Shown one piece after another: positions 1 through 5,017 of a stretch of 8,742 nt of DNA (within the stretch, counting starts at the first letter, position 1; each line of letters starts with the position of its first letter). The DNA lies in assembly GCA_030591795.1 (NCBI GenBank), contig JAUVAJ010000051.1, forward strand, positions 1 to 8,742. Reading direction: 5' to 3'. This stretch comes from Desulfuromonadales bacterium. GTDB lineage: Bacteria; Desulfobacterota; Desulfuromonadia; Desulfuromonadales; UBA2294. A program made the position numbers and the translations under genes. The notes beneath the pieces were generated by a model. The model did not search any database and was not told the origin of the DNA. It worked only from the letters and a program-made list of their open reading frames with translations.

Positions 1-908
1 CCGCCCGTGGCCGCAATGAAGCGCTGGATCATGTCCTGTTCTACGGTCCACCCGGTCTCGGCAAAACCACCCTGGCTAACATTGTCGCTATTGAGATGGG
101 GGTCAGCATCAAGAGCACTTCTGGTCCTGTTATCGAGAAACCAGGTGATCTAGCTGCAGTCCTGACCAATCTAGAAGAGGGCGATGTCCTGTTTATCGAC
201 GAAATTCACCGCCTCTCACCGGTGGTTGAAGAGATCCTCTATCCGGCCATGGAGGATTACCAGCTCGATATCATGATCGGCCAGGGCCCGTCGGCACGAA
301 CCATCAAGCTCGACATCCCACAATTCACTCTGGTCGGAGCCACAACCCGAGCCGGGCTGCTCTCCTCACCACTACGTGATCGGTTCGGCGTCATCTCCAG
401 GCTTGAGTTTTATTCAAATGCAGAACTCGCCATTATCGTTGAACGCAGCGCCAGTCTACTCGGCATCGAAACGACCAAAGAAGGGGCCGCAGAAATTGCC
501 CGACGCAGTCGGGGCACGCCCCGCATTGCCAACCGACTTTTACGCCGGGTTCGCGATTTTGCGCAAGTTGAAGGTAGCGGCAACATCACCCAGGAAGTGG
601 CTGACAGCTCCCTGTTGCGTATGGAAGTCGACGCCAAGGGGTTCGATCATATGGACCGACTCCTGATGCTGACGATTCTGGACAAGTTCAATGGTGGCCC
701 GGTCGGGCTCGATACGCTGGCAGCAGCTATCGGCGAAGAACGCGACACCATAGAGGATGTCATCGAGCCGTTCCTGATTCAGCAAGGGTATCTGAACCGA
801 ACCCCGCGCGGCCGCATGGCAACTCAACTGGCTATTAAGCATTTCGACCGGCCATTGCCAACCGGTCAGGATGATCTGTTTTCGGGGGGAGACAAAAGAG
901 ATGCGTGA
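1..908 (+). CDS. ruvB: RuvB Holliday junction branch-migration helicase, 5' end missing
   Basis: RuvB is the hexameric AAA+ motor that, with RuvA, drives branch migration of Holliday junctions before RuvC cleavage. The window enters the gene in frame at position 3, and 301 residues are visible, so roughly the first 40-50 residues of a protein of about 340 are missing. Motifs appear in family order: Walker [10 protein letters not shown] (codons from about 48), Walker B FIDEIH (about 195-212), sensor 1/arginine-finger region [18 protein letters not shown] (about 339-392), sensor 2 region [18 protein letters not shown], and the C-terminal winged-helix signature RTPRGRMAT (about 799-825). The match to E. 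coli RuvB is close throughout. The stop at 906-908 lies inside the next gene, whose ATG is at 901, so the two are probably translationally coupled. Identity is essentially certain; the start lies outside the window. Confidence 0.98.
884..891 (+). promoter_or_regulatory. Shine-Dalgarno fixing the start of the GGDEF gene
   Basis: A G-rich GGGGGGAG lies within the 3' end of ruvB and ends 9 nt before the ATG at 901. The alternative in-frame ATG at 871 has no comparable site and would add an unlikely ten-residue extension. The site supports the 901 start and translational coupling to ruvB. Confidence 0.7.
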
Positions 909-2253
909 GCGAAGACACGCTTATACAGAACATATCCGGATCACGTTAACCGGCAAAATCACAGCGACCTATCTGTTGCTGGTGTTTTTCAGCCTGATTG
1001 CAAGTGGTTACGCTCTGAACAGTCTGCACAAACAGACAACAGTGTCGCGAGACCTGGTTAACATCGACATCCGGGCCGCGGAGCTGGCGCGCGACCTGCA
1101 AGCAGAACTCCGGAGCCAGGAAAGGCTGGCCGGGCAATTAACGATCCGGCCGAATAAGAAAGCACTCGATCTTCTGAAAGAAAAACTCAGCCATAACGAA
1201 CCTAAGCAAACCAGCTTTCTGACAATCATCTCAGCCGAACAGCAGCAAGATTTTTCCGCCCTGTTTTCCCAGTACAAGGCGAGCAGTGACGAATTTCTGC
1301 AGATATTACAGAACCGGAAAAATGCAACGACAGGTTTTTACAAGAAGAGCCTGCGCCCCCGACAACATGCCGCGCTGGATGCGCTGAAAGACTTTCGTAA
1401 TAAGCAACAGATAAAAATCGATCGTTCCCTCGATCAGTTCTCCAAAGATAGTGACACTGCCTTTCAGGTAACCATGACCCTGCTGTTGCTCGGGTTGGCC
1501 TTGTCAACACCGGTCGGCATTTCAGTGATTCTCCAGATGCACCGTTCGCTGCGCAAGCTGACAGATGCAACCCAACAGATCGCTGACGGCAATTATGATC
1601 TGGACATCGACACAAAAGATCGCGACGAATTTGGTCTGTTGACCCGGGAATTCATAACCATGGGTCGTAAGTTGCGTGAATACGAAATCCTCAACCTCGA
1701 TGCCAGCCCATTAACCCACCTCCCCGGCAACCTCGTCATTCAACGTCGCGTCGAAGAGATGCTCGAGGAAGGAACCGCCTTCGCGCACGCCTTTGTTGAT
1801 CTTGATCATTTCAAAGCTTTTAATGACCGCTACGGCTACCAAAACGGCAGCGACATAATAAGCATGGTCGCTGAGATTATTAATCAGGTGGTACAGCAAC
1901 ACGGCAACCCGGAAGATTTTGTCGGCCATATCGGCGGTGATGACTACATTTTCCTGACTACTGCGGACAAGGTTGAATTCCTGGCGCAAAAATTTATCGA
2001 GGAGTTTGACCGGAAAATTCCAGAACACTATTCAGATGAGGATAGAGCTGCCGGGTCTTTTGTTGGCGAAGATCGTTTTGGCGTTAAGCGGCAATTCGAC
2101 ATTATGACGGTGTCGATTGCTATTATATGTAGTGAAAGGTCAAATTACGCCTCAGCGACTGCAATCAGCCACGAGTGTGCTAAGATGAAGGAGCATTTGA
2201 AGCGTCTACCCGGAAGTAACTACCTGATAGATCGTCGTAAAGGTGTTGCCTGA
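901..2253 (+). CDS. Membrane-anchored HAMP-GGDEF protein, variant active site (candidate Hypr-type)
   Basis: A 450-residue inner-membrane sensor with a cyclic-dinucleotide synthase-type output. Order: short basic N-terminus, TM1 about residues 20-40, a helical extracytoplasmic domain about 41-189 without recognised ligand motifs, TM2 about 190-211, HAMP about 212-262, and GGDEF about 265-450. The GGDEF core is clear: [11 protein letters not shown] (267-277), metal-binding D300 in [11 protein letters not shown], and GGDDY (345-349). Three departures stand out. The fourth motif residue is Asp rather than Glu. The primary inhibitory site RxxD is NPED (336-339), so Arg is lost. Ser317 aligns with PleD Asp344, the residue that in known Hypr enzymes is Ser and favours cGAMP. 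The ATG at 901 overlaps the ruvB stop by 8 nt, and the stop overlaps the lipoprotein ATG by 1 nt. The sensor half resembles GlrK-type kinase sensors. Fold assignment is firm; catalytic activity and product are inference, and an inactive receptor role is possible. Confidence 0.9.
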
Positions 2254-2609
2254 TGAGAAAAACCGTAATTGTCTGCCTGTTTTTTCTGGTAACCGGCTGT
2301 GTTGCCATCCAACCCGGAAAAAATTCGACGCAAAACCAGGCCAAACTATTCCACGACTCCCTGGAACAACTGCTACAAAAAAACAATACCAAGCCGATGC
2401 AGACATTTATCAAGGAGTATCCTGACAATATGTTTATTAATGATGCCAAGCAACTTTTACAACTGCACAGCAACGCAAAAAGTTGTGGCGGTAAGCTTAA
2501 AAAATGCAGCAAGCAACTTAAGGCCTCACATCAGGATCTGCAGAAATTACAAGATGATATTGACCGTCTGACCGAATTAAATCTGGAGATGGACCGAATT
2601 TCTCCATAA
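2253..2609 (+). CDS. Small lipoprotein with helical C-terminus, partner of the GGDEF sensor
   Basis: A 118-residue lipoprotein. It has a short signal peptide with a basic start (MRKT), a hydrophobic core and a lipobox LVTGC with the lipidated Cys at residue 16. Residue 17 is Val rather than Asp, which under the enterobacterial Lol rule favours the outer membrane. Residues about 30-72 look helical and TPR-like (FIKEYPDNMFINDAKQLL). Two more cysteines (C78, C85) bracket CGGKLKKC and could form a disulfide, and residues about 85-115 form a heptad-like coiled coil. The ATG overlaps the upstream stop (TGATG) and AAAGGTG at 2239-2245 is its ribosome site, so it is cotranslated with the GGDEF gene. 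The layout recalls the small lipoprotein (QseG/YfhG type) encoded beside GlrK-like sensors. A role as periplasmic modulator of the GGDEF sensor is inference; no enzymatic motif is visible. Confidence 0.85.
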   Translation: MRKTVIVCLFFLVTGCVAIQPGKNSTQNQAKLFHDSLEQLLQKNNTKPMQTFIKEYPDNMFINDAKQLLQLHSNAKSCGGKLKKCSKQLKASHQDLQKLQDDIDRLTELNLEMDRISP

Positions 2610-2773: not shown

Positions 2774-5017
2774 ATGAGTCAAGACCCCCTTCAGCAATTT
2801 GCCCGGCAGCTCCACGCATGGTCAATAGAAGAACTGCTTAAAAAACCGGGGCCATTCCGCACCGCTGAACTGTTTCCAGCTCTGCTTGGGAATGTGGATA
2901 GCATCACCCCGCCTGTTGTCTTCTGGGTCAATCGGGAGAGCCATCTGGCCGGGGGAGTCATATTACTGCCGAAAAAAGACCCAATCGGGGTTCTCGATTC
3001 AGGTCGAGAAGTCTGTGCCGCTCTCGGTCTGGACTGTTATTACACTTGGGCCGTCGGCGAAGTCTCTGCCTGGCGAGTTGACCTTGATCCGGGCCGGCAA
3101 TGGTCAGAACCATTACCAAGTGCAACCATGCAAGATGAGAGTAGCTTCCGGGAGGTGCTCTCGCTTCTGCTGGAAAGCATGCAAAACCACTTCTTTAAAA
3201 ACCAACTGCAACTACCAATACTCTCTGCGCCATACCTGACTAATCTATTACACAATTGCATAGAGTCATCGCTACCGACAATAGGCCAAAGTACGGAAGC
3301 CGGTCAGCGCACCATTACCGACGTTGTTCTACAGCTGGTCACACTTTACAGTCAGGATTTACTACCCCCTAAAACCAGCCCGGACAATTTACTGGATGAC
3401 CTGAAATATGCTTCAGAACTGCTGCCCCTCCCGCTGGCGGCGGTTTTAAATCAACCTGACGCCCCACTCCGCCTGCCTGAATCTGTTGTCATCAAACTGC
3501 ACCATCTTTACCAGCGATTACGACAACACGGACCTGAGCTGCTGCCATTTATCCCGGCAACGGTACAGCGACTACTTCGGTTCTGGTCGACAACTAACAA
3601 CTTGTGTCCATTGCCGACAGCGCTGAAGAAAACCGACTCAACATTAATTATCGCCCCGGACCGATACCATCCTGAGATGTCAGTATCGATTGAAGTTGGT
3701 GCACAGCCTCTGATCACGGCTACTGCCTTGCTTAGACAACTACAGAGTCCCGACAGACGGCACCCGTCTCAGTTTACAGATTTACTGGAGATACAAGCAC
3801 CAATCACAATTGACGCTGTGATCGGAACCTTGAATAACAATTCAAGAGCGACCGCGACCGAGCAAAAGAAGATGAATGCACTGCTGCGCTATTCATGGCC
3901 AAATCGCCAGCTTAAGCTCGCCACGAAGTCGCCACAATGGGCTTGGCGTGCCGTTCACCTCATCGGCCTTTTACAAGGGACACCACAGGGCAGCCTTAAC
4001 TTACCAGCCGATTGGCTATGGGAACCTTATGGCGAAAAATTGTTCGCCTTACTTGTCGAGCGTGTTGCTCTCAGCAAAATAAGCCAGACAGAAAAGGATC
4101 AGGTCTGTATTGAGTTCAATCGATCAACTAGAAACCAGGTTACAATCGTTTCTTTTGCAAATAGTAATCGTGTATTGGACCTCCAGAGCATGACCAGAAC
4201 AACCCTGCTTCTGGCCCTCTCTCTACCGACTGATATATACGACCTGATACGCAATGGCGAGCTCAAGCCGGCCACGGATGAGCTTCAAGCTTCTGCCGCC
4301 ATTGAACTGTTTCTACGTTCCTCTATCGGACGGGGTTTATGGCAAATTCTGGCGCCCGGGAAACCGTCGCCAGACAGGACAAAAATGCTGACAAAAATTA
4401 TTCAAAGCGGCCTGCCGTTGCCGGGCGAACAGACACTGGAGGCCCTCGCGCAGCTAGCTAAAAAATGCAACCAGCCTGATGCCGCAACTATCGACCGAGA
4501 ATTGGAGGTATGGCTCGGCTCAGCATGCTTGAGTGTAACCGCACCATGTTTCAGACCGTCTGCCAGAGCAACGCGACCCCGGCCAGAGCACGACTCCGCT
4601 GCAGCAATTGTGGACAAGCTGATCCAGTCGGGAGACATCCTTTGCTTTCCGCAAGATTACCTTTACAAAATCCCGGAGAAATCCAGAACACCCTACACAA
4701 TTACCGGGCGGCTGAAAATCAGTGAAACTTTCTTCAATACAGTTACGTTATTGTCTCCGGAAGGGGAGTCAATGCAAGTTGAAGGTGTAACAACCGCACG
4801 CTCACTAGAGTTAATATCCACTGTTCAACGCGCAGAGATCGAGCTTCCTGTCGATGAGCAGCAAGTAAGCATTATCCTCGAGCGCTATCTGCGTGACTTA
4901 CTAAACCTGCAAACAACAGTCCTGCAACTGACGGCAAATTCCGGCAGTAATTCAACAACCAGCCTGGCTGATCAGGTGTGGGACCTCCTGCCGGTTCCGC
5001 CGCGGGATCTCCTCTAA
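2774..5017 (+). CDS. Large uncharacterised protein, 747 residues
   Basis: I do not recognise the family. The reading frame is intact for 747 codons. An in-frame TAG lies directly before the ATG (2771-2773), so this or a later codon must be the start. There is no clear Shine-Dalgarno sequence, suggesting weak or regulated translation. No signal peptide or membrane span is evident, so it is probably cytoplasmic, and much of it looks alpha-helical and leucine-rich. Residues about 48-103 alternate hydrophobic strands: VVFWVN, GGVILLPKK, then ALGLDCYYTWA and a final VSAWRVD. This faintly resembles the restriction-endonuclease-like N-terminus of type I R subunits, with the usual E-x-K replaced by L-P-K, so it would be catalytically dead. 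No Walker, HTH or zinc motif was found. The C-terminal part (about residues 610-680) could contain a small beta domain. It stands alone between a terminator and the queH promoter region. The CDS is very likely real; the function is unknown. Confidence 0.8.
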   Translation: MSQDPLQQFARQLHAWSIEELLKKPGPFRTAELFPALLGNVDSITPPVVFWVNRESHLAGGVILLPKKDPIGVLDSGREVCAALGLDCYYTWAVGEVSAWRVDLDPGRQWSEPLPSATMQDESSFREVLSLLLESMQNHFFKNQLQLPILSAPYLTNLLHNCIESSLPTIGQSTEAGQRTITDVVLQLVTLYSQDLLPPKTSPDNLLDDLKYASELLPLPLAAVLNQPDAPLRLPESVVIKLHHLYQRLRQHGPELLPFIPATVQRLLRFWSTTNNLCPLPTALKKTDSTLIIAPDRYHPEMSVSIEVGAQPLITATALLRQLQSPDRRHPSQFTDLLEIQAPITIDAVIGTLNNNSRATATEQKKMNALLRYSWPNRQLKLATKSPQWAWRAVHLIGLLQGTPQGSLNLPADWLWEPYGEKLFALLVERVALSKISQTEKDQVCIEFNRSTRNQVTIVSFANSNRVLDLQSMTRTTLLLALSLPTDIYDLIRNGELKPATDELQASAAIELFLRSSIGRGLWQILAPGKPSPDRTKMLTKIIQSGLPLPGEQTLEALAQLAKKCNQPDAATIDRELEVWLGSACLSVTAPCFRPSARATRPRPEHDSAAAIVDKLIQSGDILCFPQDYLYKIPEKSRTPYTITGRLKISETFFNTVTLLSPEGESMQVEGVTTARSLELISTVQRAEIELPVDEQQVSIILERYLRDLLNLQTTVLQLTANSGSNSTTSLADQVWDLLPVPPRDLL

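Follow-up and report, generated by a model that had tools for sequence, protein, structure and literature searches.

A GSU1937-type HAMP-GGDDY protein with a Hypr-position serine outside the GacA lineage, encoded beside a lipoprotein gene

What might a membrane-bound GGDEF protein make when serine stands where diguanylate cyclases read guanine with an aspartate, and is that serine the one known from GacA? The window (the whole stretch of DNA analysed, 8,742 nucleotides) raises both questions through a HAMP-GGDDY protein encoded beside a small lipoprotein (Table 1). Judged by its residues and relatives, this protein is probably a periplasm-sensing Hypr cyclase of the GSU1937 type, a promiscuous enzyme making 3',3'-cGAMP with some c-di-GMP.

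Table 1. Coordinates of the features discussed in the window
Feature	Position	Strand	Remarks
HAMP-GGDDY protein, 450 aa, GSU1937-type Hypr candidate	901..2253	+	overlaps the end of ruvB (stop 906-908) by 8 bases
Two transmembrane helices (about residues 18-40 and 188-210) around a probably periplasmic four-helix bundle	952..1530	+	limits and topology predicted
HAMP domain, residues 212-260	1534..1680	+	PF00672, E 1.2e-10
GGDEF-fold domain, about residues 267-446	1699..2238	+	Pfam GGDEF match at 270-359
Asn277, facing the slot of the cross-dimer Arg that diguanylate cyclases conserve (Tyr304 in GmGacA)	1729..1731	+	ungapped alignments
Asn308, guanine-contact Asn (GmGacA Asn339)	1822..1824	+	Asn in 99/153
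Ser317, Hypr specificity position	1849-1851	+	equivalent to PleD Asp344 and GacA Ser348
GGDDY motif, a GGDEF variant; fourth residue Asp348	1933..1947	+	Asp348 in 152/153, Glu in 0/153
Small lipoprotein, 118 aa, LVTGC lipobox	2253..2609	+	ATG overlaps the cyclase stop TGA by one base
747-aa protein	2774-5017		no Pfam or NCBIfam match

Pfam recognises only HAMP and GGDEF in the window's cyclase, without EAL or HD-GYP; the membrane helices come from an AlphaFold2 model. The model (mean pLDDT 84.8, pTM 0.46) contains the GGDEF fold and predicts helices at residues 16-82, 86-109, 112-138 and 140-228; the fold comparison covered mainly residues 239-448. The HAMP and GGDEF pair is present in all 65 family members scanned, and 4HB_MCP_1 was matched by Pfam in 28 of the 65, the window's protein not being among them. 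The first-pass annotation is right about a sensor that spans the membrane, about HAMP and about the adjacent lipoprotein.

The family is widespread. With the window's protein as query, matches were obtained in 220 of 277 genomes of the class (E <= 1e-40); for the order of genome G001 the figure was 131 of 141 (E <= 1e-25), some of these being sister domains only. The closest relatives are in genomes G277 (70% identity), G276 (55%) and G275 (54%); one contig scan of genomes with the window's protein returned seven distant matches. The family set comprises 153 sequences, namely 140 loci (part of the matches listed) and P0001-P0013, and includes near-copies (e.g. P0012 and L044). Two protein-database searches, queried with sensor parts, gave 76 proteins in all, one of which is a fragment without the domain.

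The placement of Ser317 at the PleD Asp344 position, originally proposed from a hand alignment, was borne out in three ways. phmmer alignments to solved diguanylate cyclases set it ungapped on the equivalent Asp; profile-profile alignment by hhalign pairs it with the Ser in Hypr-like domains of G277, the nearest genome; and the family alignment agrees. Ser317 is kept in 152 of the 153 family sequences, which rules out a one-off substitution; the lone Asp belongs to L182, an extra copy that shares its genome with L181. The database members have Ser in 74/76 and Asn in one, with D347 in 73. In the main set D300, D302 and D347 are invariant (153/153), and the one residue at 348 that is not Asp is a Tyr. 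The window's protein itself keeps DxD, Asn308, Ser317, D347 and Asp348. By these residues it does not class as a canonical diguanylate cyclase: Asp at PleD 344 and GG[D/E]EF are both absent.

A second specificity position is the slot of the cross-dimer Arg. Arg here goes with more c-di-GMP in Hypr enzymes; Tyr and Gln are among the cGAMP-favouring residues, and His is not mentioned in the accessible text (PMC6456294). Asn277, found in 150/153 family sequences, faces the slot ungapped against 4urs. The hhalign alignment has a gap of four residues at this point, which makes the pairing uncertain; neither alignment puts an Arg in the slot. Among L256-L272, the best GacA match in 17 of 19 genomes (16 nearly full-length), the slot holds Tyr in eight, His in five and Gln in three, with one unread. 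In G277, the further Ser GGDEFs L130 (with REC, the GacA orthologue) and L131 (with GAF) have His and Ser at this position, respectively.

The published protein nearest to this description is GSU1937 of Geobacter sulfurreducens, reported in 2022 by Tan et al. as a second cGAMP synthase (PMC8835794). It is a HAMP membrane protein with Ser348 and GGDDF, and has many homologues in Deltaproteobacteria, without EAL or HD-GYP according to the accessible parts of that paper; its deletion lowered a cGAMP reporter by ~25% with fumarate and by 70% with Fe(III) citrate (PMC8835794). The window's protein shares the Hypr-position Ser, GGDD[F/Y], HAMP, the membrane location and the absence of EAL and HD-GYP, and differs in having Y where the GSU1937 motif has F. 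The sequence ends also fit the family. Translated in frame by eye, the published deletion primers encode the ends VQKLIAS and TPGSNY (PMC8835794). VQKLIAS lies near the N-terminal start of several members, such as L024 and L032; TPGSNY lies close to the C-terminal end of three, PGSN[YF] of 67/153 and GSN[YF] of 128/153, with GSNY in none of 22 sister GGDDF domains. Full-length matches to the window's protein in the order of G001, home of the VQKLIAS members, are about 30-37% identical to it. Because features and primer-encoded ends match GSU1937, the protein is filed with GSU1937 and not with GacA. The exact primer stretch did not retrieve GSU1937 from the 141 genomes and an outer primer occurred in 0/93 loci, so the orthology rests on features and sequence ends. 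The first-pass annotation had held that a second, differently built Hypr-type protein would be new; that novelty falls away, as GSU1937 has the same features and is a reported contributor to cGAMP (PMC8835794). By these features the kind of protein is already known and the window's protein is another member. Two results, that the serine arose separately and that a lipoprotein gene accompanies the family, go beyond the literature examined, including the accessible text of PMC8835794.

Activity data for GSU1937 cut both ways. One of four GacA-GSU1937 fusions (F4) made cGAMP and c-di-GMP and lost activity on a G-to-A change in the motif; in E. coli, wild-type GSU1937 and the other three fusions were inactive (PMC8835794). 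One rival explanation, improbable though arguable, is an active enzyme that is mainly a diguanylate cyclase, in which Ser only loosens the pocket. A D-to-S mutant of GSU3350 stayed solely a diguanylate cyclase (PMC6456294), and the c-di-GMP activity of F4 in E. coli was comparable to that of GacA (PMC8835794). However, the reporter losses in GSU1937 deletion strains argue against it, as does a cross-dimer slot in which no alignment places an Arg. The inactivity of wild-type GSU1937 in E. coli bears on another rival, that the GGDDY domain is catalytically dead, senses GTP, ATP or a cyclic dinucleotide, and relays a periplasmic signal by protein contact, for example by modulating GacA.

This dead-domain explanation is rather unlikely as a whole, and several residues lend it weight. 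In GacA the proposed general base is the fourth motif residue, and its Glu-to-Gln change abolishes activity (PMC6456294); in this family that Glu is Asp throughout the main set save for the single Tyr. Natural Ser/Thr348 proteins were reported exclusively with GGDE[F/Y] (PMC6456294). Because the signature motif used there is [G/A/S]G[D/E]E[F/Y], GGDDF proteins may not have been counted, as far as the accessible text indicates. Residue 308 drifts: Asn is replaced in 54/153 sequences, by Gly in 27, Ser in 26 and Thr in one, and the non-Asn members may be sub-groups that prefer a different substrate or are no longer active. In two members from metagenomes, P0073 and P0075, DxD and GGDD are gone (the motif reads GGAEF), yet Ser317 and the sensor are kept. 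From their sequences, Ser can persist where catalysis looks gone, and in these two a cyclase may have turned naturally into a binding domain. They and the drift at 308 make the best case from sequence that in some members of the family the domain is dead or only binds. The GGDDF sisters are, moreover, often joined to EAL (5/8 of those scanned), and degenerate motifs are typically inactive; the GGDDF/EAL protein PA3258 showed no cyclase effect (PMC8835794). Against a dead domain stand the three aspartates invariant in the main set, the GSU1937 deletion data and the F4 fusion killed by its motif mutation (PMC8835794). A promiscuous GSU1937-type cyclase is likewise favoured by the near-complete retention of Ser317 and GGDD (152/153 each), by the constant HAMP and GGDEF pair, and by the signalling context of G277 described below.

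Is the serine shared with GacA by descent? GacA (GSU1658, the founding Hypr GGDEF, PDB 6d9m) likewise has Ser at the base-reading position, the third-motif Asp and, as far as the alignments place the slot in the window's protein, no cross-dimer Arg; it differs from the window's protein in its receiver domain, its GGDE[F/Y] motif and its separate lineage. The nearest sisters by sequence are instead EAL/CBS-linked GGDDF domains, which have LPGN and GHxGGDD[FY] in common with the window's family. Residue 317 is Asp, and residue 308 Asn, in each of the 22 related domains (L236-L255, L008, L009). Five of the eight sister proteins scanned carry EAL and CBS; the other three (316-361 aa) have only GGDEF over the cut-off. 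A tree was built from 89 domains: 30 of the 153 family rows (13 chosen, 17 random), the 22 sisters, 25 other Ser domains and 12 Asp cyclases. The GSU1937-type family forms one clade (99/95) within a GGDDF half (100/100), and the other, GacA-like Ser domains form one clade (96/83) in the opposite half. A single clade for both Ser groups was rejected (p-AU 6.8e-8); without the site columns the joint clade has p = 1e-38, the GacA-like group then needing two changes, with a long-branch warning. The tree is unrooted and the branch between its halves is flagged as long. Read this way, the serine would have arisen twice, separately from GacA, an unrooted tree formally also admitting losses. With the same caveats, the tree and AU test speak against inheritance of Ser317 together with GacA's Ser. 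The GGDEF phylogeny suggested as a check in the first-pass annotation thus puts the Ser317 family outside the GacA lineage. Of the earlier view of a Hypr GGDEF like GacA, the Hypr-like serine stands; the likeness to GacA does not, given GGDDY in place of GGDE[F/Y], a difference that view had overlooked, and the domain's position in the tree and AU test.

The signalling context was read from related genomes. G277 has 12 GGDEF matches, nine of them readable by the motif rule. Three of the nine have Ser: P0014 (REC-GGDEF, the GacA orthologue), P0015 (GAF-GGDEF) and the GSU1937-type member; for P0014 and P0015 the best PDB match is the GacA structure, 6d9m. Of 19 chosen genomes, 17 have GEMM-I riboswitches. 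Their position 20 was assigned to the unpaired base immediately 5' to the opening pair of the Rfam structure, which we take to be G20 of Vc2. The strict A20 pattern was found in 96/277 genomes and the G20 pattern in 186/277, a few looking like chance matches. A20 versus G20 motifs number 3 and 7 in G277, 3 and 3 in G276, and 10 and 5 in G275. The excess of G20 in G277 fits a family that is mainly diguanylate cyclase; the reverse holds in G275. An A20G change switches a cGAMP-selective riboswitch to c-di-GMP (PMC6456294). The GacA orthologue of G277 and its three A20-type motifs, found beside seven of the G20 type, are consistent with a promiscuous cGAMP-making cyclase. Counting against that cyclase, G176 and G177 keep the family but show neither GEMM-I nor a full-length match to GacA, although a different Ser GGDEF is present in each (L274 and L273, respectively). 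Because these two genomes keep the family without them, it is not tied to GEMM-I riboswitches.

For the promiscuous cyclase, a mechanism can be proposed. The periplasmic four-helix bundle would act as sensor, probably jointly with the lipoprotein encoded next to it, and alter how a HAMP-linked homodimer packs. This would bring two GGDDY domains together, each binding one NTP, with Mg on DxD and the motif aspartates. With Ser317 in place of the guanine-reading Asp and no cross-dimer Arg, the pocket might take ATP or GTP, and Asp348 would serve as a shorter general base. The enzyme would make 3',3'-cGAMP along with some c-di-GMP, and at least part of the read-out would fall to A20-type GEMM-I riboswitches, presumably including ones in the window's own genome. 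By analogy with the tested homologue GSU1937, this product is plausible. If the family makes cGAMP, most class genomes searched carry a membrane-bound cGAMP input separate from the response-regulator-type GacA, and the lipoprotein is a first handle on its signal. The separate serine would also be a natural replicate for asking which residues open a GGDEF domain to ATP and whether the role of general base can fall to Asp.

The lipoprotein is a regular companion. Its gene lies directly 3' of the cyclase in 125 of 140 loci, with one locus at a contig end and 14 without it by the lipobox rule; under a stricter rule, 56 of the first 60 loci are positive. When the lipoprotein gene is started at its first acceptable codon, the two genes most often overlap as in ATGA, with an offset of -4 nt. 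Fourteen aligned partners share little sequence (19-48% to the window's lipoprotein), some with a TPR-like stretch, and have a C-terminal coiled coil; by profile, the top match among solved structures is BamD, the matched region taking in the signal peptide. For the window's lipoprotein no Pfam family exceeds the cut-off; an NCBIfam collagen-binding lipoprotein family matches weakly (21.8 of 90 bits, far below cut-off). YfiBNR joins a HAMP-GGDEF protein to a lipoprotein and a periplasmic inhibitor, YfiR, and YfiB has an OmpA domain. There too a membrane HAMP-GGDEF protein is encoded beside a lipoprotein, and a similar logic is possible. The window differs in that none of its eight proteins matches YfiR and its lipoprotein has no OmpA match; a YfiB-like OmpA lipoprotein is thus unsupported. 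The literature search found no paper on a lipoprotein partner of a GGDDF cyclase, and the word 'lipoprotein' is used 0 times in the accessible text of PMC8835794. A broader proposal, tentative at best, is that the two genes form a unit coupling the outer membrane or periplasm to cGAMP: a lipoprotein-gated HAMP-GGDDY cyclase with Ser317 specificity separate from GacA, on a scaffold otherwise seen as EAL-linked GGDDF. Evolution would then have made this base-reading switch on two occasions, each time with a different catalytic base.

The wider neighbourhood is less constant. The cyclase gene lies after ruvB and before the 747-aa ORF in nine of 20 loci with longer flanks, all within the first ten taken; neither was found at the other 11. 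The 747-aa protein adjoins the gene pair in the same proportion of loci (9/20), at 27-52% identity. L062 and L071 gave no lipoprotein; the gene that follows the cyclase there resembles the 747-aa ORF by eye.

Between the lipoprotein gene and this ORF lies a conserved structured element (2670-2740), in which a G5...GCCCTGCTGA...C5 stem precedes a GGCCGTCA/GGCGGCC hairpin and a T-rich tail. Its predicted fold has -41 kcal/mol (z -4.0), and an Rfam search of the window gave no match for it and no riboswitch. A terminator, a cis-acting RNA and a 3'-UTR small RNA are candidates for its role. Seven sequences of the element align with a mean column identity of 76%, and the exact pattern has a single copy in each of five genomes out of 277, lying 451-523 nt downstream of the family's gene.
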